In this document: positions 2,554-63,900 of the stretch, piece by piece
Numbering within the stretch: position 1 is the first letter of the stretch
Layout: every line of letters starts with the position of its first letter
Assembly: GCA_009602725.1 (NCBI GenBank)
Contig: WELB01000043.1
Location: 468,558-532,557, forward strand
Length of the DNA stretch: 64,000 bases
Origin: Spirogloea muscicola
Lineage: Eukaryota > Streptophyta > Zygnematophyceae > Spirogloeales > Spirogloeaceae
Direction: 5' to 3'
Notes under the pieces: model-generated
Told to the model about the DNA's origin: nothing
Database searches by the model: none
Seen by the model: the letters and a program-made list of their open reading frames with translations, nothing else
Made by a program: the position numbers and the translations under genes

Positions 2554-2675
2554 AAGGTCATCTCATGTCTTGCGGAAAGTGATCGAGCTCCTTTCGATTG
2601 ACCAGAAGCAGAAGCGGAGGTAGTACCGGGTTATGATGCAGAGTAGTCTGCTATGGGTGTTGCTCTTTTCGTTCT

Positions 2676-5642
2676 TAAAAGAGTTTGCAACCAACATACT
2701 TACGGATAGTCCATTTACTATCTTCTTCTGGGGAGGCTGGCTGCCAACAGCGCCCACTTGCAGAGGTCCTGGAGAACAGGCTCCTGCTTATGGCGCATTC
2801 CGGCCCTTGTACAGTCCTTTGGGCCGGCCTCTCACAGCCATGGCCTTGCATCGGCAGAACTATTTCCCATGTGGGAGCGGCGTCCGCGGCCCGGGCGGAC
2901 GTGCGGCCTCGGGGCAGGACGGCTTTCGGCCGGGTGCCCGGGGGAGCTTGGGCAGCCGGGCCGGAAAGGCCAAGGCGGGAGCTTGGGCGGTGCGGGGCCA
3001 CTGATCGCAGAGCGGGACGGGGCTGCCGAATCCAATCCGTGGGCCAATGCCGCGCCCGGGGCAACGGCCTGCGCGGGAAACCGGCTCCCGCCACGCTGCC
3101 CGAGGCGGCCTGAAGCTCCCCCCCCCCCCTCCTCCCACTCTCTCGCCGAGCGCCCCTCCGCCGCCGCTGCCACCGCCGCCGCCGCCGTCGTCCGCCGCCG
3201 CCGCCGCCAAGGGCCTCTGCTTCTGCGACGTTGGTCCCAAGCAGGGACAGCGCCTGCACCAGCGCCGCGCCTTCCACCGCCGCCGGCCGCCGCGCCGACC
3301 GCCTCGCCGCTGCAGCCGCGCCAGTCATGGCGTCTGGTCTTCTGGGCCTGGCCACCGCGTTCATGGCGGCGTGGGCCACCGAAGCCTGCGCAGCCGCCAC
3401 CAGGCTCGGGCTGCTTCCCACGGCCACGAGCCCCCGGGCGGCCATGGCATCGTCGCACGCCTCCGAGAGCGAGAGGCGCGGCGTGCTTCGCGCCGACGCG
3501 TGCGCCGAGCTGGCCGAAGTCGGCCCCGGGACGGCCTCAAGTGGCCGCAGAGACCGCGGCCGCCAGCTGTCGAGCCCCCGGAGGACGACCTCTGCAGGCA
3601 GTGAGCATGGCATCCCCGTGGAGGCGGCATGGCAAGCCGCCTGCTGCCTCGCGGACGCGCTCAACGACGCGCTGCTGCTGCGGCGCGAGGCCGAGCACTC
3701 CGCCCAGCTGGCCGAGGACTGGCAGCGCTACGCCGAGGAGACGGCGGTGGAGCGCGACGAGCTTCTCGCGTGGGGCCTGCGAGTGCTGGACGACAACAAG
3801 CAGCTTCGACACGCCGCACGCAGCAGCACGGAGGAGGCTGACGGCCTGTATCAGCAGGCCAAGTACCTTGAAGACTGCTGCCAGCGCTTGACAGGGCAGC
3901 TACGGCTGTGCCGGCAGCAGGCGCACGCCGATGCGCTGGCGGCGCAGGCTGCGGCCTCCGCGCTTAGGTCAGACGTTGCGGGCGCGCGGTGGCTACTGCG
4001 CGTCGCAGACAGTCGCATGCGCGCCCTGCAAACCCAAGTGGCTTCGCAGGATCACCAGCTCCAGGCGATGCACCTGGAGGTGGCTGCCCTCAGGGCCACC
4101 CTGGGGATATGCCACAGCCCGGTCGCACTCAGTGACTGCTCTTCTCTCAGGAGGAGGGCGTCTTGTGCGTAGGTGTCGTAGGTGTAGCAATACTTGCTCC
4201 GTCCCGGCAGCAGTTGTGCTGCTACTCCAAGTAGGCAGTCTTTCTCCTGCTTTATTGAATTGGTCTTCTGCAGCCAACGCCACTGTCAGAGCGTGATTGC
4301 GTGAAATCCTTTTGTGTTGCTGCGCTTACAGCTATCCCCTCTCGTGCTACTGCATGCTCGAGCCCGTCAGCAGAAAGGCTTCCTTGTGATGTTAGACTAC
4401 CTTAGGGAGAGAGCACATCTCTTTGCCGTACATTTGACACTGCATAGAGATCTCAACCTATCTGAAATGCACTAGGCTGGTCTCTCACAGAGGAGGCAGC
4501 AACATATGAATACTGACGTTCTTCCGGGCTATAGTAGTCTGGTTCTGTATCCAAATCTGAGCTACAAGCACAAAAGCGGTTTGTCCCTTCCGTCTAGGGA
4601 TTAGGACATCGCTTTTTAACAGCGCAAACGCGGGCCTAAATCACGAAGGTAGATAAAAAAATCTTGTGGATATGATACCTCTTATATCCAGTATTGCATT
4701 AGTCTCTGCTAGTACGCAGAGACTAATGACTAATGCGTACAACCGCTTGTACGTGCAAAAAAACCAGAGCATTCTGTTATTTTCTTGATCTTGGTGGTTT
4801 GCAACACCTCAGGCTCACTGCATTTATCAGGACTTAGATGTTCCTGCCACGAACTTCTTGGTAGTATACATAGGACCTATTGCTGTATCACTCCCTCTTT
4901 GTACATATGACTTTAGACATCAGGACTGCTGAGACTCATGAAAGTGCTCTTTAAAGTCTCTCTATTGGAAGAGTCACTGGGCTGATTCCTCTTTTGGACA
5001 TTCACTGTACTGTAGATAGTGATCACATACCAAGAAAATCTAACTGTGTCATGTGCACCTCATATGCTGGCAGAGTTGAAAGTTGGACTGAAACAGTAAG
5101 TGGTTAGAATGTACTGGAAGCCGCTTAACCTCTTCTCTTTCGTGTTTCCAGGTTAAAATCCTTAGTAGCTAGGAGTGGCGCTATTGTAGTGACTATGCAT
5201 GAGACCACTCAAGTTGAGAGACAGGATGTTTTTCAGCTAAAGACTTTAGATTTATCAATATAGGCTAAGAAGATACTTTGAGAGTCCTTTCTGTAGGAGC
5301 TTGGCCATTAGAGCAGATGGCTGTTGACTGCGTTGAAACGATCGATCGAGGACGTAGTAGTCATGCTAACCATGTTCATCATTATGTATGTATTACAGCA
5401 CCTTACACTGATCCTCTTATCGTTGTTATCTGGTTCTCTTGTCATCTTCTCCTCTTGCTTGGGAACACAGCATGGTGCAGACATTTATTGTTGCCTGTGG
5501 ATGACAGTCCAACAAAAAGAAGGAAAGCAGGTAACAGATAAGTCGTGTGGTCAACAGGGGAGTTGTCAACAGGGGAGAGATCATGTTGTCTCTGATGTCT
5601 GAAGCCTTTATGGTCAAATGTGAAGTACAGAATCTTGATCAA
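2676..5642. repeat. right arm of the palindrome
   Basis: Reverse complement of 1-2553, separated from it by a spacer of about 120 bases (2554-2675). It is the longer arm and keeps the GC-rich 5' part of the coiled-coil unit (poly-C run near 3120 and GCC repeats at 3160-3210) that the left arm has lost. The spacer plus the inner part of this arm (about 2557-4500) recurs as a direct copy at 8316-10262. The outer part, 4500-5642, holds no gene I can recognise. Confidence 0.9.
3231..4172 (+). CDS. coiled-coil protein of an amplified unit, copy 2
   Basis: Frame of 313 residues, almost identical to copy 3 (8551-9933) over the coiled coil. A likely start is the Met near 3327 (MASGLLGLATAF), which opens a short hydrophobic alanine-rich stretch followed by a basic, serine-rich linker and then the coiled coil from about residue 130 to the end (RRRASCA). 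In copy 3 the same frame runs further upstream; here it is closed off by length changes in the poly-C and GCC runs near 3120-3210. A retroelement-type tail (2797-2845) lies upstream in the same orientation, as in copy 3, so that junction predates the duplication. Function unknown; host gene captured by a repeat, or the element's own protein, are both possible. Confidence 0.5.
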   Translation: MVPSRDSACTSAAPSTAAGRRADRLAAAAAPVMASGLLGLATAFMAAWATEACAAATRLGLLPTATSPRAAMASSHASESERRGVLRADACAELAEVGPGTASSGRRDRGRQLSSPRRTTSAGSEHGIPVEAAWQAACCLADALNDALLLRREAEHSAQLAEDWQRYAEETAVERDELLAWGLRVLDDNKQLRHAARSSTEEADGLYQQAKYLEDCCQRLTGQLRLCRQQAHADALAAQAAASALRSDVAGARWLLRVADSRMRALQTQVASQDHQLQAMHLEVAALRATLGICHSPVALSDCSSLRRRASCA

Positions 5643-8315: not shown

Positions 8316-10262
8316 CATCTCATGTCTTGCGGAAAGTGATCGAGCTCCTTTCGATTGACCAGAAGCAGAAGCGGAGGTAGTACCCGGTTATGATGCAGAG
8401 TACTCTGCTATGGGTGTTGCTCTTTTCGTTCTGAGGAGAGCTTGCAACGTACCAACGTACTTATGGATAGTCCATTAACTATTTTCTTTTGGGGAGGCTG
8501 GCTGCCAACAGCGCCCACTTGCAGAGGTCCTGGAGAACAGGCTCCTGCTTATGGCGCCTTCCGGCCCTTGTACAGTCCTTTGGGCCGGCCTCTCACAGCC
8601 ATGGCCTTGCATTGGCAGAACTATTTCCCATGTGGGAGCGGCGTCCGCGGCCCGGGCGGACGTGCGGCCTCGGGGCAGGACGCCTTTCGGCCGGGTGCCC
8701 GGGGGAGCGTGGGCAGCCGGGCCGGAAGGGCCAAGGCGGGAGCTTGGGCGGTGCGGGGCCACTGATCGCAGAGCGGAACGGGGCGCCGAATCCAATCCGT
8801 GGGCCAATGCTCCGCCCGGGGCAACGGCCTGCGCGGGAAACCGGCTCCCGCCACGCTGCCCGAGGCGGCCTGAAGCTCCCCCCCCCTCCTCCTCCCACTC
8901 TCTCGCCGAGCGCCCCTCCGCCGCCGCTGCCACCGCCGCCGCCGCCGTCGTCCGCCGCCGCCGCCGCCGCAGGGCCTCTGCTTCTGCGACGTTGGTCCCA
9001 AGCAGGGACAGCGCCTGCACCAGCGCCGCGCCTTCCACCGCCGCCGGCCGCCGCGCCGACCGCCTCGCCGCTGCAGCCGCGCCAGTCATGGCGTCTGGTC
9101 TTCTGGGCCTGGCCACCGCGTTCATGGCGGCGTGGGCCACCGAAGCCTGCGCAGCCGCCACCAGGCTCGGGCTGCTTCCCACGGCCACGAGCCCCCGGGC
9201 GGCCATGGCATCGTCGCACGCCTCCGAGAGCGAGAGGCGCGGCGTGCTTCGCGCCGACGCGTGCGCCGAGCTGGCCGAAGTCGGCCCCGGGACGGCCTCA
9301 AGTGGCCGCAGAGACCGCGGCCGCCAGCTGTCGAGCCCCCGGAGGACGACCTCTGCAGGCAGTGAGCATGGCATCCCCGTGGAGGCGGCATGGCAAGCCG
9401 CCTGCTGCCTCGCGGACGCGCTCAACGACGCGCTGCTGCTGCGGCGCGAGGCCGAGCACTCCGCCCAGCTGGCCGAGGACTGGCAGCGCTACGCCGAGGA
9501 GACGGCGGTGGAGCGCGACGAGCTTCTCGCGTGGGGCCTGCGAGTGCTGGACGACAACAAGCAGCTTCGACACGCCGCACGCAGCAGCACGGAGGAGGCT
9601 GACGGCCTGTATCAGCAGGCCAAGTACCTTGAAGACTGCTGCCAGCGCTTGACAGGGCAGCTACGGCTGTGCCGGCAGCAGGCGCACGCCGATGCGCTGG
9701 CGGCGCAGGCTGTGGCCTCCGCGCTCAGGTCCGACGTTGCGGGCGCGCAGTGGCTACTGCGCGTCGCAGACAGTCGCATGCGCGACCTGCACGCCCAAGT
9801 GGCTTCGCAGGATCACCAGCTCCAGGCGATGCACCTGGAGGTGGCTGCCCTCAGGGCCACCCTGGGGATATGCCACAGCCCGGTCGCACTCACTGACTGC
9901 TCTTCTCTCAGGAGGAGGGCGTCTTGTGCGTAGGTGTCGTAGGTGTAGCAATACTTGCTCCGTCCCGTCAGCAGTCGTGCTGCTACTCCATGTACGCAGA
10001 CTTTCTCCTGCTTTGTTGAATTGGTCTTCTGCAGCCAATGCCACTGTCAGAGGGTGATTGCGTGAAATCCTTTTGTGTTGCTGCGCTTACAGCTATCCCC
10101 TCTCGTGCTACTGCATGCTCGAGCCCGCCAGCAGAAAGGCTTTCTTGTGATGTTATCATGGCGAAAGAGCTCACCTCCTTGCTGTACATCTTGACACTGC
10201 ATAGAGATCTCAACTTGTTGAAATGCGATATGCTGGTACCTCACATAGGAGGCAGCAACATG
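8316..10262 (+). repeat. third copy of the coiled-coil unit (direct repeat of 2557-4500)
   Basis: The match starts in what is the spacer of the palindrome (GGTCATCTCATGTCTTGCGG) and runs through the GC-rich part and coiled-coil gene to the AGGAGGCAGCAACAT segment, where similarity stops. It is very close to the right arm; length differences lie mainly in the poly-C and GCC runs. The copy therefore begins inside the centre of the palindrome and lacks its outer ~1.1 kb. Confidence 0.9.
8551..9933 (+). CDS. coiled-coil protein of an amplified unit, copy 3 (longest frame)
   Basis: A 460-residue open frame. Residues 1-175 are Gly/Pro/Arg/Ala-rich and include retroelement-tail-derived sequence (LWAGLSQPWPC region), so the biological start is more likely the Met near 9088 (MASGLLGLATAF), giving about 280 residues. 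A hydrophobic alanine-rich stretch and a basic linker come first, then a coiled coil that fills the C-terminal 180 residues. The coil is nearly identical to copy 2, and a more diverged relative with preserved motifs lies at 37860-38480. I recognise no family. It may be a captured cellular gene. Confidence 0.5.
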   Translation: MAPSGPCTVLWAGLSQPWPCIGRTISHVGAASAARADVRPRGRTPFGRVPGGAWAAGPEGPRRELGRCGATDRRAERGAESNPWANAPPGATACAGNRLPPRCPRRPEAPPPSSSHSLAERPSAAAATAAAAVVRRRRRRRASASATLVPSRDSACTSAAPSTAAGRRADRLAAAAAPVMASGLLGLATAFMAAWATEACAAATRLGLLPTATSPRAAMASSHASESERRGVLRADACAELAEVGPGTASSGRRDRGRQLSSPRRTTSAGSEHGIPVEAAWQAACCLADALNDALLLRREAEHSAQLAEDWQRYAEETAVERDELLAWGLRVLDDNKQLRHAARSSTEEADGLYQQAKYLEDCCQRLTGQLRLCRQQAHADALAAQAVASALRSDVAGAQWLLRVADSRMRDLHAQVASQDHQLQAMHLEVAALRATLGICHSPVALTDCSSLRRRASCA

Positions 10263-11369: not shown

Positions 11370-13606
11370 TCAAGTGCACACATTGGCGTCTAGCAAGTTG
11401 CTCTCTGGCTCCCAAGAGCTGTGCTCCAAGCCGTAACCGTCCCACTGGATGAGGATTTCCCTACTGCCTCGTCGCCCTCTCCTTGCAAGGATATGCTTGA
11501 TGACATATACCATTTCCTTGTCACTTTTCTTGGCTTCCTGCAAGCGTGATCTGTTTTGAGCCCTGGGCTTTTTCCTATGTATATGAGCACTGTTGCTGCT
11601 GAAGCAAGATGTGCATTGAGGCAACCTAGTCAGTTGCCGCATGGTGCCTAGTTCATGCTGTAGCGAGACTAGCTTCCGTTTGCTGCTAGAAGCTCTTGTA
11701 GCCATCCCGCTCGACCCCTCCGAGCTGGACACTGCCAATCCTGGACTAGAGCTTGACGAATCTTCAGGAGTCTCATCTTGTGTGACGCCTGACTCAGAGC
11801 TCAGTGGTTCTTCTAATCGGCACTCTTGCTGCGTCAGGACGAGGTAATGTGCCACCGATGTGTACCCCTCAGCAACGACCTGCAACCGTACAGCCCGTTT
11901 GCCAACGAGGGAATCATGGACTGACATGCCGTATCTTCTTGTAGAGTAATAGTGAGCTGCACATCTCGGCTTCTCCAACTTAGTAGCTCAGCTCGTCAAG
12001 GCGTCAACCATGGTCGTAGCTAAAGACTCGCTCACCTTCCTGTAGAGTTGGCCTGTGGGGGCCCAGCCCTTGTGCGACCTACAGAAGCTGCAATTGCATA
12101 TGTCTCGGCAGACTGGGCACACCCAGTCCTTGTTCTCTTGTGTCTCAAGCACATTCTCACCATATCTGCCCACACATGAAAGGATCAGCACGTACTAGGA
12201 ATCAGCTGACCAGCCAAAGGAGCGCAGGCTGCCTACAGCAAGAGTGTGCATGAGCCCCATGATATTCAGGTAGTGCATGCTTGTGCACAACTCAGCATAA
12301 CTTAGACACTGGGTGAAGAGCAGGAGCTGCTGAGACACCTCACCTCATGAAGAGGCAATCACCACAAAATTGCCCGCGGAGGGACTTGCACTTAGAACAG
12401 GTGGTCCGCTGGCCCAGCGTCTTTTGCCTGTGCTTGCACAACCCATCAAAGTACAGCAATGAATTATACTGGTCCCCTTGTCTTCAGAAGATGCAGAATT
12501 CAGTGCTTAGCAAGAATTGTAGGCCAGCACTGCATTCTGGATTCAGCCACCGAGTTAATAGGCTTGCTTGAAGCTGATAGCAGTTCAGCTATCCTCAGCT
12601 GACCTGCATTGGTGACAAGTTCTCCCCTTAAGATTGTCATACACCCGCGTCTTTCCTGCGTTGTAGATGATGACAGCACAATCAGCTGGCTGCTGACCTA
12701 CAACATGCAGCAAGGATAGGGAATGCGAGCAAGGTATATGAGCAGATAGGTCATATTCAGGGGTACACAAGCTGCAGTGAATAGCAGAGTCTTGCTGCCT
12801 GCTTCCGAAGACGTTGAGAAGGCCGTTGTAAGCCACATCCGTCGGACGAGTCCCACGGAGCTACACTATAACTTTTTGCTGCCCAGGCTGGACCTGTTGA
12901 CGAGACGAGCTATGCCAGAGAGCTGCGCACCATCGGGATTGAAGCCGTCCTTGTTGAGTTGCCACGGATGGGCTGCACTGCCCAGCAGCTGCTGGTGCTC
13001 GCGCGTGTACAACTCCGGCTTGCATTCGCCAGGCTGCAGCTTTTGCCGCCGCCCCTCTCCGCTGCTGGCCAGCCGTGGCCGCGGTTGCCGCGTCGATGCC
13101 GCATTAGCACTGAGCTCACTGTAGTCCTTCTGAAGTCCTGCCAGCCTGGTGGCAGGCGTTCCCGAAGTGTCAAAACTCTGTGAGCAGCTCGACCCTCAGC
13201 TCACCTGACTCTACTGCTGACACGGGGTTACTAAGAGCGCCCAGCCTGTCTAGCCTGTTGCTCCGCCAACATGGTCATGAACACCCTCGGTATGTACCTG
13301 GCTGGCTTGCACAGCCGCTCGTATATTATCAGCAGCCGCATTGTGAATTTTCTGACGTGAGCGGGGAGGCGCGAACCTGGTGGAAGAGCGCCTGGCGGCA
13401 GCGCGAGGCAGCTGCGCTCGGCGTGAGCCGCCAACGACAGTCGGCGGCGGCAGCGGCGGAGGCAGAGGAGGAGCCGCGGCAGGAGGAGGAGGAGGAGGAG
13501 GAGGATGCGGGGAGGCGGCGGCGAGGAGGCCGAGCTCCAGCAGGCGCGCGCGGTTGGCGGCCAGGCGCGACTGCCGCTGAAGCTCGTACGCCGTCAACGC
13601 CGCCAT
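11370..13606 (-). CDS. CDCA7-like zinc-finger protein with C-terminal chromodomain
   Basis: Exons (minus): 13606-13377, 13145-12931, 12655-12604, 12427-12344, 12165-12036, 11879-11370. All five junctions are GT..AG, the phases agree, and the product is 406 residues. The N-terminus carries the family's YELQRQSRLAANRARLLELG motif. After a Pro-rich stretch come RRSSTRLAGL and ELYTREHQQLLG. The 4CXXC_R1 zinc domain follows: GRTCHQCRQKTLG, C-x2-C, RGQFCGDC, RYGENV, WVCPVCRDICNCSFCR and GWAPTG, then SVAHYL. The Arg, Gly and Arg that correspond to human ICF-syndrome sites (CHQCR, RGQFCG, RYGE) are all present. An acidic serine-rich linker leads to a chromodomain (VYVIKHILARR..QWDGY..SSWEPE) with all three cage aromatics. 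CDCA7 recruits the HELLS/DDM1 remodeller for DNA-methylation upkeep; the chromodomain suggests added H3 methyl-lysine reading (inference). Confidence 0.9.
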
Positions 13607-13837: not shown

Positions 13838-14440
13838 CATGGCAACAAGTGACGCGTTCGACCGGGCCAACCCCACCTCCAAGGCAGGGCTGCAGTCGCC
13901 AGTGCCTCTCGAGGCAAGGAAGGCAATATGCTGATCATCCGCCGAAGGACAACGTCCTTCCCCTTGCCATCGACGTCCACGGGGCGCTCGGTGGCTCGAG
14001 CTCCTGCACGGGCTAGCGCGCAGTGCTGTGTCCCGACCTTACCAGGAAGCAGGCCGATTTTCACGCGGCAGGCTCTCTCGCCTCCAGGTGTATCGCATGC
14101 GCCTGTCAGGGTCGTTGCCGGGGCCAATGGAACACGCGTTGCATCTGCGTGCCGGTCGTGCTTTGGCTGCAGCCTCTAGCTATAGACAAGGGACTTGCTA
14201 CCTGGAGACGCTTCCCTGACCGGCGGCTGCTCAACAGGGAAAATTGAGCATCCAGTGGCCACTTGAGTCGCTGATGCTTTAAGCCTTTTCTGGCCTCTTC
14301 GAAATTTGTTCATTCTTAAATCTGGGCTAGCCAATCACAGTCATCGCCCTCTACTGGAAGAGTCTCTCTCTTCACTGTCCGTCCCTAAACTCACTCCTTC
14401 TCTGGGCTGGCCTTTCACACATCGCGCATCACTGCGGACG
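13838..14440 (+). mobile_element. non-LTR element 3' fragment
   Basis: In broken frames it encodes the end of the endonuclease region and the C-terminus: SDAFDRANPTSKAG, ADHPPKDNVLPLAIDVHGAL, VYRMRL, HALHLRAGRALAAAS and a final RRLLNREN. It is followed by a degraded 3' UTR. It lies about 140 bases behind the E2F sites and so limits the promoter of the CDCA7-like gene. Confidence 0.8.
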
Positions 14441-28199: not shown

Positions 28200-28384
28200 N
28201 NNNNNNNNNNNNNNNNNNNNNNNNNNNNNNNNNNNNNNNNNNNNNNNNNNNNNNNNNNNNNNNNNNNNNNNNNNNNNNNNNNNNNNNNNNNNNNNNNNNN
28301 NNNNNNNNNNNNNNNNNNNNNNNNNNNNNNNNNNNNNNNNNNNNNNNNNNNNNNNNNNNNNNNNNNNNNNNNNNNNNNNNNNNN
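28200..28384. other. assembly gap (185 N)
   Basis: Run of N directly upstream of the MAP2 start and followed by 122 A residues. The shared promoter region of MAP2 and the lipase gene, and the lipase start, are lost here. Confidence 0.99.
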
Positions 28385-33000: not shown

Positions 33001-33830
33001 TGGGTGTAAGAAGGCCAGCCCACAAAAGAACGAACAACGGCCAAAAAGAAGAGCAGCTCTGGCAAGGAGGCCAGCGCCGTTTGAATATAACCAAGTCTTG
33101 CCAAAGAAGGTGATATCCCTGTATCTATTGCTGCTGTGACAAGTCATTCACACAGATAGACAAGGCGCAGAGGAATCAGAAAGCGTGTTTGGATGGTCAC
33201 GGGCAGCGGCGGCCGCTGGCCGGGCGAACGTGCGGCCGGGGGGCAGCGGCCGAGTAAAGTAAAGTAAAGAAAATAGCTCTCTCAAATTGACAGCAATGGC
33301 TATGAGAGGCCAGTCCAAACGGATGGCCCAGAAAGGAGTGGCTCTCCCCATGGGGCAAAGGGCTGTGAAGGAGGAGCTCGCTGCAGGGAAAGAGGCACTC
33401 CACCGAGACCCAGAGGCGGCAGCTGTAGCACGGCCTGCTCGCGTGTGGACGGCGTAGGCAAGGGAGCGTGGAAACAATACCGCCAGGCGCATACGGAAGA
33501 CTTGGGCGAGCGAACCGGCGGCGTTGAAGCCGTGCATCGCCCCTGGCAGACCCGGCCGCCGGCCAATGGCCTGACGGGCAAGCCGCTGGAGGAGAGGCCA
33601 TTTGGCCTTTGTTTGTTTCAAATACACGAAGCTTTCCGTCCTGGCCCAAGGCGGGTGCTTGGGCGGACAGGTGTACCGGTGTCCCTCAGCTGGTAGCTCA
33701 AGAGCTTGTCGATTGCCGTCAGGTATTCGAGCATCAGTTAGCGACCTCTGTGTGCTGACTCGTGAGCGGGTCAGCTTAGAGGCAAGCGCAGCCAGATTGA
33801 CTGGTGGCTGGGAGAAGCCAGCCCAAAAGG
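33000..33830. mobile_element. mosaic of retroelement tails and C-terminal fragments
   Basis: Contains minus-strand tails near 33010-33060 and 33290-33340, and a minus-strand C-terminal coding piece at 33300-33600 (GFNAAGSLAQVFRMRLA, AVHTRAGRATAAASG). There is also a plus-strand UTR of the ATACACGAA subfamily at 33595-33640. Next to the following element's UTR is the hairpin GGCTGGGAGAAGCCAGCCC (33807-33825). Confidence 0.7.
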
Positions 33831-33834
33831 ACTC

Positions 33835-34815
33835 TCAGTAACCTCTTGTCAGTAGATGCAAGTCGAAAGAACTAGCAGGCAGATAAAGGTCGCCCTGACG
33901 GAAGCCGGAGGCCGCCGCCATAGCACGGCCGGCGCGCAAGTGAACCGCGAAGGCAAGGGACCGCTGCAAGGAGATGGCCAAGCGCATCCGGAAGACCTGA
34001 GCGAGGGACCCGGCGACATTGAAGCCAGGCTGCTCGCCCTGCTGCCCGTGGCGGCGGGCCACTGCTCGCCGTGCAAGGCGGTGAAGCAGGTCAAGCCATC
34101 TTGTGCCAAAGGCTCCGTGTACGTCGACGGCGAGTGGGACAAACTCGTCGCCCACGGGGTGATCCGAGTACTTCCGTTCCTTTGCGCCCGCCGCTCGGCG
34201 GACTGCGTAGCCAGTCTCCTCCGAGGAGCTTTTGGCGTTCCTGGCATCAAAGCAGTCAGTCGTGACGACGTCGGCGATGTGCCGAGGCCCCCCGCCGAGC
34301 GCGCTGACGACGAGATCGGGGCGCCTGGTGTGGAGGCGGCCATCCGCCCCAGCGGTCAGAGGCATGATGCTGGAGTCCTCGAGCGCCACCGTGTTACCGG
34401 CCTCGACAAAAATGCCGAACATGGCGTTACGGAGCAGGTCGTGCGTGCCGGTCCGCTCCCCACCCCGTGCGCACCTGATCATATGAGCTGCCAACGATGC
34501 CGCATCTGGGCTGCGCTCGCCGCACTCGCACTGCTGTATTCCACCTAGGCAGGGTCGGTGGAGGCCGAGTAGGCGGTGCACAGCCGTGCGGAATGCGTCG
34601 TCCGGCATCCGGAGCGCGTCTTGGATCGGCAGGGCAGACAGCCAAGCTGCCGCCCCTGGTGAGGATGCCGAGAGCAGCCGCGCGCGCCCCCGGAGGTCGT
34701 CCGGAGGCAAAAGCCCCACGGCCGTGGTGAAGGAGGCCGCATCTACTTCCGCCATGTAGCGAGTTTGGGCCCGGAGGTCGGCCGTGCGCGCGAGGTGCAC
34801 GAACGGGAGAAGTGC
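33835..34815 (-). mobile_element. non-LTR element copy B: intact knuckle-endonuclease C-terminus
   Basis: An open frame of 335 residues, of which the first ~10 come from the tail of the preceding element. Contents in order: post-RT region (LPFVHLARTADLRAQTR, ARLLSASSPGAAAWLSALPI, FRTAVHRLLGL), a CxC..H..C knuckle (CECGERS..HMIRC), then the restriction-like endonuclease region GTHDLLRNAMFGIF, RRPDLVVSALGG and IADVVTTD. The end is the conserved segment GSLAQVFRMRLAISLQRSLA, AVHLRAGRAMAAASG and LHLLTRGY. The RPD..D pattern fits the PD-(D/E)xK-like nuclease found in R2/HERO-type elements. The open frame suggests a young insertion. It is 5'-truncated and abuts the tail of copy A in the same orientation. 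Confidence 0.88.
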
Positions 34816-37560
34816 GCGCCCATAGAGAAGAGGGGCTGGCAAAGCCAGCCCAAAAAAGAATGGACAATGTCCAAAGCCAAAAAAAGAGGAGCCGGAGAAA
34901 GGACTACACTACAAAACACACTGCAGAACACAGAAACGATGCAAAGGAAAGCTCAGTACCCACGAGTGAGCAACATCAGGTCTGAGTAGCTCGCTGCAGG
35001 GAAAGAGGCACTCCGCCGTGACCCAGAGGCGGCGGCCATAGCACGGCCTGCGCGCGTGTGGACGGCGTGGGCAAGGGAGCGTTGAAGCGATACGGCTAGG
35101 CGCATGCGGAAGACTTGTGCGAGCGAACCGGCAGCGTTGAAGCCTGGCATCGCCCCTGGCAGACCCGGCTGCCGGTCAATGGCCTGGCGGGCAAGCCGCT
35201 GAATGAGATCCAGCCAGCGGCTGCCGAAAGCCCCGTGTACATCCATCGCCAGGGCCGCGAATTCATCCCCCACCGGGTGATCAGCATATTATCGCTCCTT
35301 GCCCCGGGCCGCCTGGCCGACCGCGTGCCCTGCAAACGACGCCGATCTGGTGGAATTGGCGGAGTCGATGCAGTCAGTTGTCACCACGTCAGCGATGATG
35401 CGGGGACCGCCGCCGTACGGGATGGCGACCAGGTCGGCGCGTCGCGTATGGGGCTGGCCGTCGCGCAGGAGGTCGTGGGAAGCGGTCCGCTCGCCCCCGT
35501 GGGCGCGCAACGGAGCATGTGGGCGGCCAGCTCCGCAGGATCAACGTGTCGGGCACCGCACTCGCATTGAATGACGCCCACGAGGCAGGGGGAGAGGAGG
35601 CCCAAGAGCCTGTGGACCGCCGTCCCGAAGACCTCGTCGGGCATGGTGAGCGCCGCGTGGAGTGGAAGCGCTGATAGCCACGCCGCCGCCCCAGGGGAGG
35701 AGGCTGAGAGCAGCCGGGCGCGCCCTCGTAGGTAGCCGAAGGGAGAAGCTCCACCACCTGGTCGGAGGCCGCTTGTTCAACCAGCGCCGAGAAGCGTGCC
35801 TGGGCACGCTGGTCTGGGGTGTGGGCGAGGTGGATGAAAGGAACGGCCTGTTCCGACATGTGGGGGTGGACCGCCAGGAGCCCGTCGCGGGCAGAGCGGA
35901 GGGCAACCTGAAAAGGCAGCTGACCGATCTCCACCTCAGCTGCCACCCGCTCCAGGAGGCGCTGGCCGTGCACGAGGAACCTCTGGCACATTGGGGCTGC
36001 CACCTGAGCCCAGCTACCCATGTAGGCCGCCTCGCAGCCGCGGGCAACTGAGCCGCATCCCATGCCGCCCCGGCTGATCGGCAGGCTAGCCTGCAGCAGC
36101 GCAGCTGGTGTGGTGAGGAACGCGGGGTGCTGCACCAGGGTGGCCGCGGACGCCAGGATGCCGGAGTCAAAGGCCGCATACGCTGCCTTCACCGCCGACG
36201 AGGGGGGGATGGTGCGGGCCAGATATTGTGGCCGCTGCGCAATGCACCGTGTCAACATCGCAGTCGCCAGCTGCATGTCGTGGAGCGTGTGGAGACGGTC
36301 CGCTGGCCGGAGGTATTCCTGCAGCCGCGCCTGCAGCTGCTCCGTCACGAAGGCAGGTGCGCCTAGGGGACGCCGAGGAGGGTGAGGCCCCCGGCTGGTG
36401 TCTGGCAACCCTCGGGCAGGCGCAGGTGGGCTGGCAGGCCCTGAGGGGACCAGGCGCTACACTTGTCCGCCCGAATATCCAGGCCGATCGCGTTCAGCTG
36501 CACTTGGAGGGTGTCAAAGGCAGCTGTGACCTCCTCTGGCTTCCCCACCAGCGTGGTGTCATCAGCGTATGTCGGCACGAGGACGCCGGGGTGAACCGCG
36601 ACCGTTGCCTGGAGCGCACGGTGATGGGCCAGCGCATAGTAGAACCCCGCCAGTGGATCCCCTTGGCGCGCGCCCCTGGAGTGGAGGGTCTCCAGCGCAT
36701 CACCCCCCGCCCGCAGCTCGCATGGCTGACCGTACCCCAGCCTGAAAAAGGGTAGTAGGCTGGGGAAGGCCTCTCTCAGCTCCTCCGCGATGACACCACG
36801 ATCAACGCTGTTGAAGGCGTTGCGGACGTCGACCGCCATGGCCACCCACTCGGGATGCAGGTCCAGGGCGGCCCGTACGCCGTGCACGACCGTCTCACCG
36901 CCGCTCCGCAGCCCCGCACCAGTTTGTTGGGGCGCCAGGTGTGCCTGGGCCTGCCCTGCGTGCTGTTGCCAAAGCGCGCGCCCCACCAGGCGGTAGAGCA
37001 CCTCACCGATGGCGATGGGCCTGACCCCCCCACCGGCCTTGCTGAGCGCCAGCAGTGTACTGGTGCACAGGAAGCCGCGAACGCTGGCCGGGACCTGGTC
37101 GCGAGCGAGGAGCTGGCACACCTGGTGGAGCGCCTGGAAGTCGGCCGGGTCGCCCTCCAGGAAGATCTCCCGGAGATGCTCGGTGAGCATTTGGGAAGGA
37201 CCTCCCGCGGCTGCGCGGCGGCTGCTCTGCAGGGCCCTCCGCAGGGCGTCGGCTTCGAGGACCACCTCCTCCGGCGGTGCGAAGGTGGCCAGCCACGGGG
37301 GCAGGGGGTGGCGAGCCGCAGGGTGCAGGGACTCCAGGGCCGCTCTTGTGGCAGCATTGGTGGGCGCCAGCACCGCGTCGTCCAGGGCCTGGACCGCCCT
37401 TGACAACTCGCCCGCGTGACCGAAACGCAGAGCCCGGCGAGCATTGGCGGCCACGTCTGGTGCGGCCCGCGCATCACCTCGGTTCGCCGCCGAGGCCGCC
37501 ACCGCTGCGTCATGGCGTGCGACGGCCCGTGGCACCAGGGCGGGGTGATCCGCAAGCAGC
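34816..37560 (-). mobile_element. non-LTR element copy A with reverse transcriptase (RLE clade)
   Basis: The most complete copy. Pre-RT region at about 37535-37240 (ALRFGHAGELSRAVQALDDA). RT follows: GGVRPIAIGEVLYRLVGR, AVDVRNAFNSVD (catalytic Asp), GARQGDPLAGFYYALAHH and YADDTTLVG (catalytic YADD). The post-RT region starts APAFVTEQLQARLQEYL and includes RGGMGCGSVARGCEAAYMGS. The knuckle and endonuclease (RRADLVAI..IADVVTTD) follow, then the C-terminus ending LLTRGY at 34953-34955. The frame is broken near 36363 (one missing base creates TAG), near 35690 and near 35500, and about 30 codons of the endonuclease region are absent, so it is inactive. The 3' UTR with perfect hairpin occupies 34952-34816. 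The missing 5' part is not recognisable. Confidence 0.93.
34833..34851 (-). other. 3' UTR hairpin of the retroelement clade (type copy)
   Basis: GGGCTGGC-TTT-GCCAGCCC on the minus strand, a perfect 8-bp stem with a 3-base loop. Upstream in the UTR lies GGACATTGTCC, a second small palindrome. The UTR ends about 20-25 bases later with CTATGGGCGCGCACTT and no poly(A). Comparable copies: 52661-52679, 60729-60747, 63165-63182, 51078-51095, 50551-50571, 62442-62462, 63651-63671 and others. Confidence 0.9.
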
Positions 37561-37740
37561 GCAGCCCGGAGCGGAGAGCCGCCTGGAATGGCAATGTGCC
37601 GGTCTCCACGTCAGCTGCCGCCTGCTCCAGGAGGCGACCCCCATGCCGGACGAAACGCTGGGCCACCGAAGCCGCAACCTGCGCCCAACTCCCCAGGTGT
37701 GCTGCCTGCAGCAGGTGACGTACATTTGTCAACGTGCTTG
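37561..37740 (-). mobile_element. post-RT fragment of a second non-LTR element
   Basis: Minus-strand frame reads HLGSWAQVAASVAQRFVRHG, then LEQAAADVETGTLPFQAALRS, the segment that follows RT in copy A. It is joined directly to the pre-RT region of copy A, so two elements are fused here, or copy A inserted into the post-RT part of an older one. Confidence 0.75.
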
Positions 37741-38489: not shown

Positions 38490-38700
38490 TTCCGGCAGCT
38501 AGTCTGTCGGATGTGAGGCTCCTTACTCGTAACTACTGAGTGGTCCATCCTCCCCCCTTCTGCCATAGCCTCTTCAGGCCCCACAGTCGCTGCTTAGCTC
38601 GTACTTTGGCCCCTTCGAACCGTGTCAATTCTTTTCGGGCTGGCTTCTAACAACCCTTGCCCCCATTGGGAGAGCCACTTCTTCTTTGACAGCTGGCGGC
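38490..38700 (+). mobile_element. non-LTR element tail
   Basis: Starts with the last codons (SVGCEAPYS-frame variant of RLLTRNY, stop near 38536), then the UTR TGGTCCATCC, TTTGGCCCCTTCGAACC and hairpin GGGCTGGCTTCTAACAACCC ending GGGAGAGCCACTT. The same subfamily is at 50400-50600, 62330-62480 and 63520-63700. Confidence 0.8.
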
Positions 38701-44466: not shown

Positions 44467-44546
<80 letters not shown>

Positions 44547-44759
44547 NNNNNNNNNNNNNNNNNNNNNNNNNNNNNNNNNNNNNNNNNNNNNNNNNNNNNN
44601 NNNNNNNNNNNNNNNNNNNNNNNNNNNNNNNNNNNNNNNNNNNNNNNNNNNNNNNNNNNNNNNNNNNNNNNNNNNNNNNNNNNNNNNNNNNNNNNNNNNN
44701 NNNNNNNNNNNNNNNNNNNNNNNNNNNNNNNNNNNNNNNNNNNNNNNNNNNNNNNNNNN
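44437..44759. repeat. (GA)n microsatellite running into an assembly gap
   Basis: About 110 bases of nearly pure GA repeat (44437-44546) followed by 213 N (44547-44759). It sits between the divergent 5' ends of the ABCG and GMC oxidoreductase genes. Long GA tracts are common near plant promoters and also cause assembly breaks. Confidence 0.97.
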
Positions 44760-47700
44760 GCCCGCGCCGCCGCGCCGCCGCCTCCTGCCCCTCCTCCCCC
44801 TCCCCCTCGCCGCCGCGCTCCTGGCGGCCGCCGCCCGAGGTGTTCGCCCGCTGCTCTGAGCTTGGCCAGTCAGGCACCTCCATCGCTCGCTACACACTCC
44901 ATCTTGCCGCTCGCCGCCTGCCTCCCGCCTGGCCGCGGCGCCCGCGCCGCCGCACTGCGCGGCACCCTGCCTCGCGGCCGTCTCGCGGCATGGCCTGATC
45001 GACTGCCTGGTCACGACGGGCTCCTCGGATCCGCTGATTACTTCGCCTCCGCCACTCAACTCCGCTGTGCAGCGTACGACGACCCCTACATCAGCGACGG
45101 CACCAGCGCGCCCAAGGAGGCCACCTACGACTACATCGTCGTCGGTGGCGGCGCCGCCGGCTGCCCGCTGGCCGCCACCCTCTCCCACGGCTTCAAGGTG
45201 CTGCTGCTGGAGCGCGGCGGCGTGCCGTACGACCAGCCGTCCGTCCTCAGGCGCGAGGGCTTCCCCACCGTACTCGCCACTCGGGCAGTCCAGCCTTTCA
45301 GATCGGAAGATGGGGTGCAGAACCGGCGCGGCAGGGTCCTCGGTGGCGGCAGCTCTGTCAACGCCGGGTTTTACAGGTGAAAGGCTGGATCGAGCATACG
45401 GATGTGTCACAAGCGCGTGCTGAGTGTATCGGTATTGGTGGTCGACGCTGCCTGCAACGACGACGAGTAAGAAGCTACGTCGTATTGCAAACCATCCATG
45501 ATTTTGTGACAGTCACCACCACTTGCACAGTAGCAATGTTAAGTTCTTACTGGGCAGCTTGCCTGCACAATCCCATCTCCTGAAAAGGCATAACCTGGAG
45601 GTAATTCGGTCTGAGAATGTACAGCGTGCCCTGATCATCCACCCTCCAGCTCCCTCCACCGAATAGCTTGTACGTGTGTGCGCCGCCTCAGCCGCGCCGC
45701 AGCAGACTTCATCGAGCAGACGGGATGGACGAAGGAGCTGGTCAAGGAGTCATACGAGTGGGTCGAGAAGCAGATCGTATTTGATCCCCCAATGGGCCCA
45801 TGGCAGTCAGCATTGAGGAACTCTCTGCTGGAGGCAGGCGTGCAGCCATACAACGGCCACTCCTTGGAGCACCTCTATGGCACGAAGATTGGCAACACCA
45901 TCTTCGATGCCAATGGCACTCGTCATACTGCTGCAGACCTTCTTAGGACCTCCAACTACGACAACCTTCGGGTCCATGTCTTCTCAGAGGTGGAGAAGGT
46001 GCTCTTCGACAGGACTGGTGAAGTGCTCTTTCGCCTCCATGCACCTGAGCAAGTGCTTTCATCTGACTGGGATCAAAGAAGGGCACAGATGACAACCGGC
46101 CTGGTCCAGGATGCACTGAAGACGTGATGCGAATCCTGTCACTGGTAGTAGACGCCCCGCGGCTATGCACCACATTGCCTGAGCAGTACAGCAAGCCAGG
46201 GGGCAGGTATGAGCTTAAGGTGCAGCTTGTCAAGATGGACTCATACTTGACCTCCTCACTGTGCACCGAATGCAGGACTCAAACCTCGGGCAATTGGTGT
46301 TCAATTCTCAGATGCCAAAGGAGAGATGCACACTGTGACATTGCGACCAACAGGAGAGGTCCTGATGACGGCTGGCGCCCTTGGAACGCCTCAAATTCTG
46401 AAGCTCAGCGGCATTGGACCTGCGGACGAGCTGCTTGCTCTTGGCATTCCTGTTGTCTGCGATGTACCAAGTACGCTTCGCTCTCAGATTGTGCATCATG
46501 CACACAATATGCATACCTATGACTTAAGACCTGATTGCTGATCATCAAGGAAGGTTCTCGATGTTGCTGTGCTGTGCAGCTCTTGGAAGAAACATAACAG
46601 ACATACCCATCAACATAATCAACATCTTCTCTCCAAATCCAGTGGAAGAGTCCTCACTAGGAGTGTGTGCACTTACAACCCTCTTGCAAGATGCAGTGTG
46701 CCTCGCTCTTAGCCCACTGCATTATCAACTGGATGCATGATTCGGTGTTAGGATATGACAGGATGTGCTTGGTGAGGATATTGAGCTCGCTATACGGCAT
46801 TTCGCGAAGTCATGTGTGTGTCTTGTTAGTAAAGTCGCAATTTGTCGTCCAGATATCTTGCTGCTGCATTGTGAGATTTCTGCTGGCTTGGTGCTGACAG
46901 GTCGTCGGTATTTCTAGAGAGGGCACTATCTTCGAGGGAGCCAGTGGTGGAAATAAAACGCAAGTGGCTCCTGCGGCAGGAGAACTGACAACCGTGCCTC
47001 CAGTCAATCGAACCGATGCTTTGACCTCACAAACATCTGCCATCCTAAACCTTCTGCCTCCGTTCATATCAAGCGAGATCAACCAGGTATAAGGAAAACC
47101 CCGAGACTGCAGGACTGCTTACCGCTTCTTGACAAGTGGTGAAAGCACAGTATGGTCATCCAGCTGATGCTGATGATTTTGAGACCGTCTAGATGGGTAC
47201 ATAGAGGCAGCCATGATTCGACGGAAGCTGCTCATGACTGGCTGGACTATGTCATTGTATTCAGGAGTTCGAGAGTGCTTGTACCAAGCTCAATGCTATA
47301 CATATTTATATTGTCATCAGCTATGATATTTCTTAGACCACCCAGTCCATCCTTTTTGCAATCCCCATGTACTTGTCCAAGCTAGTCGTGCTTATAGAGT
47401 GGTGGGAATGCACCAGGCGGGCTACGTCTTGAGCAAGGTCTACAGACCAAAGTCCCGAGGATGGATGAGGCTCAAGACTCTGAATGTTGGTGACAACCCG
47501 ATTGTGAGGTACAACTATTATCATCACGAAGACGACATTGACACCTGCATCTCTGGGACACGGGTGCTCCACAAGATTCTCAATGCCACAGCGTTCCAGG
47601 TCAGCCATCACGTACCTTATGCATGAGGCTGTCTGCATACCTCTGAGAATGATACATGAGAAATTTGAGTCAGCCATCAAGCATAATCGCCATAGGTTGC

Positions 47701-51051: not shown

Positions 51052-51721
51052 AAGGGCTCGCCCATTGAGGATAAGGGGCTGGAAAAAGCCAGCCCAGAAA
51101 AGGATGAACAAAGGACGAGAAGGGGCCAGGGGAAGTACAAAGAACAACTAGCACAGAAAAGAAACGAAGCAGCTACGAAGCACTCAGTAACCCCTGCTAA
51201 GCAGCCTCAGGTCAGAGAGACTGGGTTCCTGGTCCCCTGGCCAGAGCCAGAGGCAGCAGCGAGGGCTCTGCCTGCACGCAGGTGCAGCGCGCGGGCCATA
51301 GACCTCTGCAGCGAGACGGCCAAGCGCATGCGGTACACCTGCGCTAGCGACCCTGCTGCATGGGAGTCCACCGGCTCCCCATGGAAGCGGCGGGCAATGG
51401 CGTGACGAGAGAGCTGGTTGAGCAGCTCGAGCCACCGAGCGCCCAGCGCCCCGTGCGTATCGATGGCGAGCGTGAAGAACTCGTCTTCCCGCGGGTGATC
51501 TGCGTATTTTAGCTCCTTGGCCCGAGCTGCGCAGGCTACCGCATACCCAGCTTTGGTGGCACACTGGGTTGGATGTGAGCGGTCATAGGAGTCGGTGGTC
51601 ACCACGTCCAGGAGAAGACGTGGCCCGCCTGCCGGTGGGGTGGCCACAAGGTCCACGCGACGAGCGTGGAGACCGTCGGCCCGTTGCTGGAGCGGCATGA
51701 CGGCAGAGTTCTCGGCTGCCA
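51052..51721 (-). mobile_element. nested non-LTR element in the body of the 50652-52731 element
   Basis: Minus strand, 5'-truncated at ENSAVMPLQQRADG, with RRVDLVATPPAGGPRLLLDV, VTTDSYDRSHPTQ, YADHPREDEFFTLAIDTHGA and a C-terminus DLRLLSRGY (stop near 51187), then UTR and hairpin GGCTGGCTTTTTCCAGCC. The flanking GCAGTGG repeats (51045-51051 and 51722-51728) fit a 7-bp TSD. Its 3' end, CAATGGGCGAGCCCTT, lies about 25 bases beyond the hairpin, with no poly(A). Confidence 0.8.
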
Positions 51722-52030: not shown

Positions 52031-52702
52031 CGACGCGCCGACCTGGTCGCCATCCCGCCAGGCGGCGGTCCTCGCGTCATCGCCAATGTGGTGACAACTG
52101 ACTGCATCGACTCCGCCAATCCCACCAGGTCGGCGTCGTTTGCAGGGCACGCACGCGGTCGGCCTGGCGGCCCGGAGCAAGGATCGCAAATAAGCTGATC
52201 ACCCGGTTGGTGATGAATGTTCGCGGCCCTGGCGATGGATGTACACGGGGTTTTCGGCAGCCGCTGGCTGGATCTCCTTCAGCGGCTTGCCCGCCAGGCC
52301 ATTGACCGGCGGCCGGGTCTGTCAGGGGCAATGCCCGGCTTCAACGCCGCCGGTTCGCTCGCCCAAGTCTTCCGCATGCGCCTGGCTGATTCGTTTCAAC
52401 GCCAGCCCCTCTTCTCTATGGGCGCGCACTTCTTCACGCTCCCTTGCCCACGTCGTCCACACGCGAGCAGGCCATGCTATGGCCGCCGCCTTTGGGTCTC
52501 GGCGGAGTGCCTCTTTCCCTGCAGCGAGCTACTCAGACCTGATGTTGCTCACTCGTGGGTACTGAGCTTCCCTCTGCAACGTCTACGTGTTTTGTAGTGT
52601 TTTGTGGTGTAGTCCATTTCCCGGCTCCTCTTGGGCTTTGGACATTGTCCATTCTTTTTAGGGCTGGCTTTGCCAGCCTCTCTTCTCTATGGGCGAGCAC
52701 TT
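52031..52702 (+). mobile_element. nested non-LTR element in the 3' tail of the 50652-52731 element
   Basis: It begins mid-endonuclease (GACGCGCCGACCTGGTC; RRADLVAIPPGGG, VTTDCIDSANPTRSASFAGH), passes through ALAMDVHGVFGSRWLDLLQR and GFNAAGSLAQVFRMRLAD, and ends with UTR and hairpin GGGCTGGCTTTGCCAGCC at 52661. The flanks TCTTTT (left, to 52030) and TCTTTT (right, from 52702) fit a short TSD, and the older element's end CTATGGGCGAGCCC resumes right after. It contains a ~36-bp tail-only insertion at 52402-52437. Confidence 0.75.
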
Positions 52703-52731
52703 CTTTTTCTATGGGCGAGCCCTCCCCTTTT

Positions 52732-52815
52732 GGGGCTGGACACTGTCCATTCTTCTTCGGCTGGCTTTGCTAGCCCCCCTTCTCTCGGGGCGAGCACGCT
52801 CTTTGGGAGAGCCAC
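52732..52815 (+). repeat. retroelement tail
   Basis: GGGCTGGACACTGTCC, then GGCTGGCTTTGCTAGCCC and GGGCGAGCAC followed by TTTGGGAGAGCCACTT: a tail carrying features of two subfamilies, immediately upstream of the PHO1-type gene region. Confidence 0.7.
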
Positions 52816-53183
52816 TTGCCGTTTACCAGCCAGTCTTTCACATCAGCAGCCGCACACTCATGTCGGCCACTTGTCACTCGCCACGGACGAGGTCCATTTA
52901 CCCGAGTCTCCAAGGCTAGCGGGGACCCGCCACGCGGCGCGCCGCCGCCGCCGCTGCAGCCGCCGCCGCCGCCGCCGCCGCAGCTGGAGGAGGAGCGCGA
53001 AGCGGAGGCGAGCGTTGTTCAGGCGGCGCGGGAGTAAATCGTCGTCCGGCCAAATCGTCGTCCGGCATGAGCGACAGNCGCCATGGCGGCATTGCCAGCG
53101 TCGCTGTCGCCAGCGCCTCCGCCGTGCCTTCAGAGCCGGGCCGCAGCGTCACACGCCGTCGCAGCTGGCCGCGCTGCCCGCAG

Positions 53184-60429: not shown

Positions 60430-60660
60430 TCGTGAGGCTGCTTAGCAGGGGTTACTGAGTGCTTCGTAGCTGCTTTGTTTCATTTTGTGCTTGTTTTTCT
60501 TAGCGCTTCCCCTGGCCCCCTTCTCGTACTTTGTTCATCCTTTCTTGGGCTGGCTTTTCCAGCCCCTATCCTCAATGGGCGAGCCCTTTCTTCGGCTCCT
60601 TCGGACCTTGTCCATTCCTTTGGGCTGGCCTCTCCCAGCCACCAGTTAATCTGGCCGCGC
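60430..60660 (+). mobile_element. two retroelement tails in tandem
   Basis: First tail: LLSRGY-type end (CTTAGCAGGGGTTACTGAG) at 60438-60459, UTR, hairpin GGGCTGGCTTTTCCAGCCCC (60548-60567) and end CAATGGGCGAGCCC. It is followed at once by a second tail, CTCCTTCGGACCTTGTCC with hairpin GGGCTGGCCTCTCCCAGCC. Confidence 0.8.
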
Positions 60661-60699
60661 TTGCTGATTTCTTCGTCTGCGCCAGGTGCGCAAGCTTCA

Positions 60700-63459: not shown

Positions 63460-63900
63460 GGCCGTGCTCTCGCTGCGGCCTCCGGCTTTCGTCAGGGGGA
63501 TAGTTTACCGGCAGCTAGTCTGTCGGATGTGAGGCTCCTCACTCGTAACTACTAAGTGGTCCATCCTCCCCCGTTCTGCCATAGCCTCTTCAGGCCCCGC
63601 AGTCGCTGCTTAGCTCGTAGTTTGGCCCCTTCGAACCTTGTCAATTCTTTTCGGGCTGGCTTCTCACAGCCCTTGCCCCCTTTGGGAGAGCCACTTCTGT
63701 TCCCGCGCCGGAAACATGCGGCTGCTGATGGGGAGAAGGGCTCGGCCGTAGAGGATAGGCTGGAGAAGGCCAGCCCAAGCAAAGTATGGAGGGTGATAAC
63801 GACCACAGCAGCTAAGCGACAGGGTAGGCAGACCGGGCGCTCTCAGACCCCGTGTATCAGAGCGCCGTGCTGACACGTTATTACTGAGCGAGTCAGATCT
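63460..63900 (+). mobile_element. retroelement C-terminus and tail
   Basis: Last coding part (AVLSLRPPAFVRGI frame; SVGCEAPHS..) to the stop region near 63550, TGGTCCATCCTCCCCC box, CCCCTTCGAACCTTGTC and hairpin GGGCTGGCTTCTCACAGCCC, ending GGGAGAGCCACTT at 63696. A minus hairpin GGCTGGAGAAGGCCAGCCC lies at 63758-63776 and an unrelated C-terminal end at 63845-63890. Confidence 0.75.

Follow-up and report, generated by a model that had tools for sequence, protein, structure and literature searches.

R2 elements end without poly(A), and so does the long interspersed nuclear element (LINE) described here, which we studied in a 64-kb stretch of the Spirogloea muscicola genome (the window; G000:C43:468558-532557) and across the genome searched (153.1 Mb, 471 contigs). 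Only in a few systems is it understood in detail how the reverse transcriptase (RT) of a LINE chooses its own RNA. R2Tg is reported to initiate on a 67-nt 3′ element (PMC12222951), and template jumping by R2 RT has been studied in vitro (PMC8857657). R2 belongs to the clades with a restriction-like endonuclease (RLE), given in one account as CRE, R2, R4, NeSL and HERO (PMC4640811), and R2-like elements without site specificity are reported from a cockroach (PMC7650587). In stringent LINEs of several clades a 3′ hairpin is described as the presumed RT recognition site (PMC5135761); green-algal L1 elements and RandI-SINE pairs (SINE, short interspersed nuclear element) are reported to carry 3′ hairpin tails (PMC5135761, PMC3747384), and Chlamydomonas genomes to carry L1 and Dualen LINEs (PMC8226300). 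We found no description of such a restriction-type LINE in this lineage in the open-licence literature searched. The one genome studied here holds several subfamilies, young copies that are nearly identical and, by extrapolation, tens of thousands of tails that share one short module. We consider it likely that the copies in the window belong to a dispersed, non-site-specific, R2-like clade of RLE LINEs, whose RT starts on a 3′ module of about 70 nt.

The layout resembles that of R2Bm and R2Tg, with one frame holding the RT and putative N-terminal fingers, knuckle and restriction-like endonuclease. A short structured 3′ module for initiation would be a further likeness, its length here being about 70 nt against the 67 nt reported for R2Tg (PMC12222951). 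R2 occupies one site in the 28S ribosomal DNA, whereas the copies here are dispersed: the 3′ flanks of nine copies of the young family F1 are unrelated to one another, so that a fixed target site is absent. A second difference from R2 is that no hepatitis delta virus (HDV)-like ribozyme was matched at the element 5′ ends searched (two sub-threshold Rfam matches; seven loci); at the gathering score Rfam had no match anywhere in the window. HERO and other non-specific RLE LINEs and the cockroach R2-like elements likewise combine a restriction-like endonuclease with the lack of a fixed target, but we saw no hairpin tail and no mass of truncated tails described for them (PMC4640811, PMC7650587). 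With the stringent LINEs the element shares a conserved 3′ hairpin, but the endonuclease of those LINEs is of the apurinic/apyrimidinic (APE) type, RandI/Dualen having both kinds. The plant L1 hairpin is reported to keep a UCU loop motif and, 3′ of its stem, CGAG (PMC3747384); the loops here often contain TCT, and CGAG lies about 15 nt past the stem in tail types I and II. Dualen/RandI, RLE-bearing LINEs known from green algae, are comparable to the present element, which differs in that a 1,389-residue frame had no Pfam match to an APE endonuclease at E<1.

Coding capacity and 3′ ends of the element

Two copies, A and B, lie on the minus strand of the window. The original prediction had named, at 33835-37560, an RT, a knuckle and an endonuclease-like motif, with LLTRGY ends in both copies and a hairpin with a TTT loop, and all of these are seen in the sequence. 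The stop-to-stop frames of a second family, F2, run to 1,386-1,433 codons, and from 5′ and 3′ ends we estimate the full F2 element at about 4.3 kb. Pfam recognised a single family in the 1,389-residue frame, RVT_1 (E=2.4e-13, residues 663-889). By eye, F2 also has two N-terminal Cys/His motifs, a CxC..H...C motif and RRADLV..DVVTTD, which resemble the motifs of fingers, a knuckle and a restriction-like endonuclease. A PDB search with a single sequence gave no match, and with a 19-sequence profile it gave one chain only, that of an R2 protein, weakly (E=0.074). The architecture is like that of R2/HERO-type elements. With the RT of copy B as query against its own genome there were at least 102 scored matches among 1,659 first-look candidates, and the exact pattern LL[TS]RGY-stop occurs 5,615 times in the genome and once in the reversed control.

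To compare termini we took the regions past the stop of 12 F1 and eight F2 copies. Nine of the F1 regions are identical through GCACTTTCTTCT, which ends 29 nt past the hairpin without poly(A), and their flanks diverge beyond it; five of the F2 regions terminate at GCCTTCTTCT before the flanks diverge. Across the subfamilies read, the terminus lies 27-30 nt past the CAGCC arm and lacks poly(A), in line with the fixed distance that had been predicted.

Among 40 coding ends, read by eye in the order of the list, 32 have a sense hairpin 42-191 nt downstream. Six ends have none (one is N-masked, one has another tail, one has the 5′ arm deleted, and three are other cases), and the remaining two are a spurious match and an antisense hairpin. 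Read from the hairpin side, a coding end is recognisable within 240 nt of 86 of 255 hairpins, counted over all loci in a set enriched by design. At least six tail types have the hairpin-bearing 3′ end in common. Type I (TTT loop) follows SYSDLMLLTRGY and similar coding ends after about 90-104 nt, type II follows SLSDLRLLSRGY after mostly 76-98 nt, and type IV follows SYSDLHLLTRGY after 64-70 nt; in type III the ending is LLTR[TN]Y and the distance 97 nt in three copies, but other endings and distances occur as well. In a more distant relative (32% identity) that ends in LTRGY, the 100 nt past the stop contain no such hairpin, so the hairpin marks a subclade. We also noted a tandem array of three coding-end-plus-tail units, at an exact spacing of 164 bp, at G000:C1:1708270-1708727 (-).

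Tails as insertions: number, truncation and chains

Tails were counted with a sequence profile of 68 positions, built from 86 seed tails (94 minus 8 dropped), at a threshold of E<0.01 and with reversed sequence as control. The window has 38 matches (17 plus, 21 minus) and the control none; because window tails are among the seeds, these matches describe the tails and are no independent detection. With a regular expression there were 35 matches, of which some five are not tails by eye, and none in the reversed window, so that the predicted number of about 30 tails on both strands stands. The claim that they occur in nearly every intergenic block went too far: at E<0.01 they are concentrated at 14-16, 33-35, 49.8-53 and 59.8-63.8 kb, and 15.8-24.2 kb is empty. 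Genome-wide, two exact tail patterns occur 5,937 and 6,713 times, and exact cores of types II and IV 4,329 and 1,579 times, all with reversed controls of 0. Scaling from the small numbers in the window (5 or 6 exact against 38 profile matches) suggests a genome total of about 4-5 x 10^4 tails.

Truncation was read in 78 tails of types II and IV only, retrieved via a 3′ anchor; two regions that coincide with earlier loci (L182, L184) were left out of this set, and L009, which is the window copy itself, was likewise dropped from the counts. The coding end is reached by 24 of the 78, and the other 54 are cut short at points that range from 10 nt inside the 5′ base of the hairpin to 89 nt beyond it; in a larger, overlapping set, 71 of 121 type II tails were truncated, 44 full and 6 unreadable, and of 51 type IV tails 28 were truncated, 21 full and 2 unreadable. 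The link of tails to coding ends that had been proposed is thus wanting in most of the 78, but since the 5′ ends are spread through the same 3′ untranslated region (UTR) we read the lone tails of these types as truncated copies. The alternative that lone tails are SINEs, with their own 5′ head and a borrowed LINE tail, seems to us quite improbable. Tails do outnumber coding ends, by extrapolation, and LINE-tailed SINEs are reported from Chlamydomonas (PMC3747384), but the 54 truncated tails begin at scattered points inside the 3′ UTR of the coding copies, and no common 5′ head or defined 5′ end was seen among them. On the reading that we prefer, the element protein would bind the 3′ module and nick a dispersed target, reverse transcription would start at the last base of the module, and lone tails would be failed copies rather than separate SINEs.

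Direct repeats of at least 9 nt flank 16 of 60 tails, against 2.3 expected. Pyrimidine-only repeats were excluded. About ten repeats of at least 8 nt resemble target duplications by eye, the duplications being 8-12 nt long; examples are CCATTAGCCTGG, around an insert of about 37 nt that starts in the hairpin loop (L193), TGATATTAAA (L204) and TCTACTGGA (L217). At L070/L053 (G000:C195) an F1 copy has GAAACAAA on either side, and 17 extra nt at its 5′ junction resemble the end of a type IV tail.

Tail starts are unevenly placed around the hairpin. In a first sample, 15 of 200 fell in five loop positions and none in the four preceding positions; among the later 78 tails, seven started in the loop, two in the inner 5′ arm, ten at the base and four and two in the next two five-base bins (p=0.053). 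Chance T matches may swell the base bin, and at least two of the starts assigned to the loop (L175, L056) are longer tails from within which the 5′ arm has been deleted. It is suggestive that truncation points favour the hairpin base and loop. Tails also form chains. When the next tail piece lies within about 8 nt of a terminus, the orientation is the same in 35 cases and opposite in 13 (p=0.001; 25 and 10 in an earlier count); for neighbouring tails further away the figures are 7 and 4, and 27 and 18, which are not significant.

Both template jumping and oriented nested insertion fit the same-orientation chains. The RT might stop or switch template at its own recognition hairpin once the cDNA extends to the loop or base, leaving inserted stubs of 40-100 nt or jumping onto the 3′ end of another tail RNA, a proposal that we make tentatively and regard as rather doubtful. 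If it were true, recognition and the abortion of copying would be one event, which would explain the same-orientation chains as well as the excess of lone tails over tails with coding ends; the tails being a natural record of copying stops, the link of a recognition structure to 5′ truncation is testable. Strand-biased nested insertion into the pyrimidine-rich parts of older tails would produce chains and loop-start tails with no template jumping, and we give it a little less than an even chance. One clear case of nesting is L217, with its 9-nt repeat TCTACTGGA, copy B lies within copy A in equal orientation, and several repeats start in a terminal TTC/TCT; against this, several short chains (L048, L002, L035:2707) have a second tail whose lost 5′ half could not be located upstream by eye.

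The nesting of B in A was traced by tblastn with the frame of locus L018 as the family protein. Residues 533-1390 of copy B align at 37430-34953 in four pieces, the RT (36366-37430, with 87% identity) being followed by a linker, the knuckle, the endonuclease-like domain and LLTRGY; the 5′ edge is approximate, somewhere in 37431-37540, and the LLTRGY stop is 101 nt upstream of the hairpin. The terminus of B, 34812 +/- 5, is approximate since the tail runs into copy A. Residues 1003-1059 of copy A lie on the far side of B, so B (about 37.5-34.81 kb) is inserted within A, between family residues ~1059 and ~1066. In copy A only 10 nt (33825-33834, -) separate stop and hairpin, against the 64-70 nt of its subfamily, the result of an internal deletion that spared both.

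Conservation and pairing of the hairpin

The last ~70 nt can be aligned across at least six tail types and the UTRs further upstream cannot. The module opens with a T-rich lead that contains GTYCATTC; the hairpin GGGCTGG..CCAGCC comes next, and some 28 nt then lead to the terminus CTTTCTTCT, without poly(A). We aligned 141 non-redundant tails (171 before removal of near-duplicates at 93% identity). By parsimony each column of the 5′ arm has changed 2-6 times and each of the first nine upstream columns 17-40 times, a contrast inflated by the fact that tails were partly found by that same arm; among tails found by the 3′ anchor only, the arm stands unaltered (GGGCTGG) at its place in 31 of 40 of type II and 32 of 40 of type IV. 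At the five core pairs about 95-97% of cells are paired; at the outermost and the innermost pair the figure is 55-60%.

The histone stem-loop processes or stabilises a non-polyadenylated RNA end. That the module is likewise an RNA 3′-end signal and not an RT binding site would suit a hairpin at a fixed distance from a terminus without poly(A), with a 5′ arm kept as sequence. We nevertheless hold it to be unlikely: truncated inserts still begin exactly at the end, the ~28 nt past the hairpin are also conserved, by type, and the reported recognition of a 67-nt 3′ element by R2Tg RT offers a precedent (PMC12222951), although both roles could coexist.

Several results weigh against the reading that the RT of an RLE LINE starts on this module. 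In the 1,389-residue frame no Pfam model matches the endonuclease or the fingers. Among the 12 F1 regions, L057 ends early and L049 and L058 lack the expected family end, and three of the eight F2 regions have irregular ends. By eye, five of the 16 long direct repeats stem from repeated tail sequence and not from the target. As to the stem, both sides had changed in 1 of 977 pair cells, where shuffled alignments had a mean of 2.2 and 468 of 500 shuffles reached the observed value; stem pairs scored near or below zero in a tree-based covariation test; RNAalifold predicted no pair on the 141-tail alignment; and only five of eight single tails folded into the hairpin, with energies clearly under those of shuffles in three of the five.

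The proportion of paired cells was likewise no higher than in shuffles (85.2% against 85.3%), and the tree-based test gave its strongest correlations, with E of about 1, to subfamily markers, of which most are not base pairs. The compensating stem changes of the original prediction are therefore not borne out, nor did the 141 tails confirm its G-to-C swaps. The stem is kept as sequence, without compensation, whereas compensatory changes are reported for the plant L1 stem (PMC3747384). Covariation thus does not demonstrate the structure itself, and since the 5′ arm hardly varies its failure is no disproof of a hairpin. The proposal that a retroelement clade has this tail as its 3′ module, probably recognised by the RT, keeps the support of the ~70-nt alignment, the conserved arm and the spacing, but loses the covariation evidence offered for it. 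A stem without compensatory change would also be expected if the hairpins of the subfamilies were alike only through recent common descent and exchange, with no need for the structure. This we find very improbable given how few changes the arm has undergone beside the upstream columns (even if partly inflated by tail finding) and given that hairpin and terminus keep a constant spacing while the remaining 3′ UTR varies from type to type.

Two further pairings were considered and rejected. A pseudoknot between the loop and a 3′ GAGAG/CGAG, noted by eye in types III and V, had no prominent pair in the covariation test. An outer helix GUYCAUU:AAUGGGC, present in folds of types I and II, gave -6.81 kcal/mol with a tail's own strands and -6.79 kcal/mol with exchanged ones; 89 of 200 permutations were as good, and the reversed control gave -7.00. 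Some tails (L056 (613, -), L148, L175 and L089) lack the 5′ arm of the hairpin and retain the sequence on both sides.

Features of the window and neighbouring sequences

Features of the element and its tails in the window (positions on the 64-kb stretch)
Feature	Position	Strand	Remarks
Copy B, coding part	34953..37540	-	family residues ~505-1390; 5′-truncated, frameshifted
Copy B, 3′ UTR and type I tail	34812..34952	-	end judged against F2 copies
Copy B, hairpin GGGCTGGC-TTT-GCCAGCCC	34833..34851	-	sequence
Copy A, 3′ coding part	33835..34809	-	residues 1066-1390, 66% identity over 325 residues; LLTRGY end
Copy A, remaining 5′ part	37541..37708	-	residues 1003-1059, 65% identity over 57 residues; beyond B
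Copy A, type IV tail	33779..33834	-	profile match 33831-33788, E=1.4e-07; terminus approximate
Copy A, hairpin GGGCTGG-CTTCTC-CCAGCC	33806..33824	-	sequence
Type VI tail	14300..14368	+	profile E=2.7e-07
Type III tail	38616..38681	+	LLTRNY coding end 97 nt upstream; E=7.6e-13
Type II tail	51052..51116	-	LLSRGY coding end 88 nt upstream; E=3.7e-14
Same-orientation chain	52639..52820	+	type I tail, short terminal piece, second type I tail, short type III terminal piece; profile matches 52639-52703, 52706-52723 (E=3.2), 52737-52799
Type II tail, truncated type IV tail directly after	60525..60661	+	same orientation; matches 60525-60590, 60602-60661
Type V tail, CTCTCA loop	62820..62876	-	E=2.5e-13
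Type III tail	63632..63697	+	LLTRNY coding end 97 nt upstream; E=1.2e-15

A second, distant clade, with VLTRGY/LTRGY ends, is present in the window at 7177 (+), 33619 (+) and 60828 (-), and also at L007:2077-3019 and L141. Its 3′ end has GGCC-ATTT-GGCC or GGCC-ACACAT-GGCC followed by TTTCAAATACACGAA or TTAACACACGCATTT, and the GGGCTGG hairpin is absent from the second-clade 3′ stretches examined. A coiled-coil-like coding unit (ADALNDALLLRREAE...) is repeated at 1459-2500 (-), 2675-4172 (+), 8471-9933 (+) and ~38.1-38.5 kb (-), with a type V tail near the 5′ side in two copies; in Pfam one copy had no match and another a sub-threshold match to DUF6043.

The frame at 44469-46127 (+) has a weak, below-cut-off match to GMC_oxred_N (E=0.0031) and a motif known from algal fatty acid photodecarboxylase; this oxidoreductase reading, which Pfam supports weakly, is what pointed within the sequence to a probable green alga. 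At 11373-11987 (-) there is a Chromodomain match (E=6.9e-08), perhaps part of another retroelement. Runs of N in the assembly lie at 28200-28384, beside a poly-A/poly-lysine run, and at 44547-44759, beside a GA repeat.

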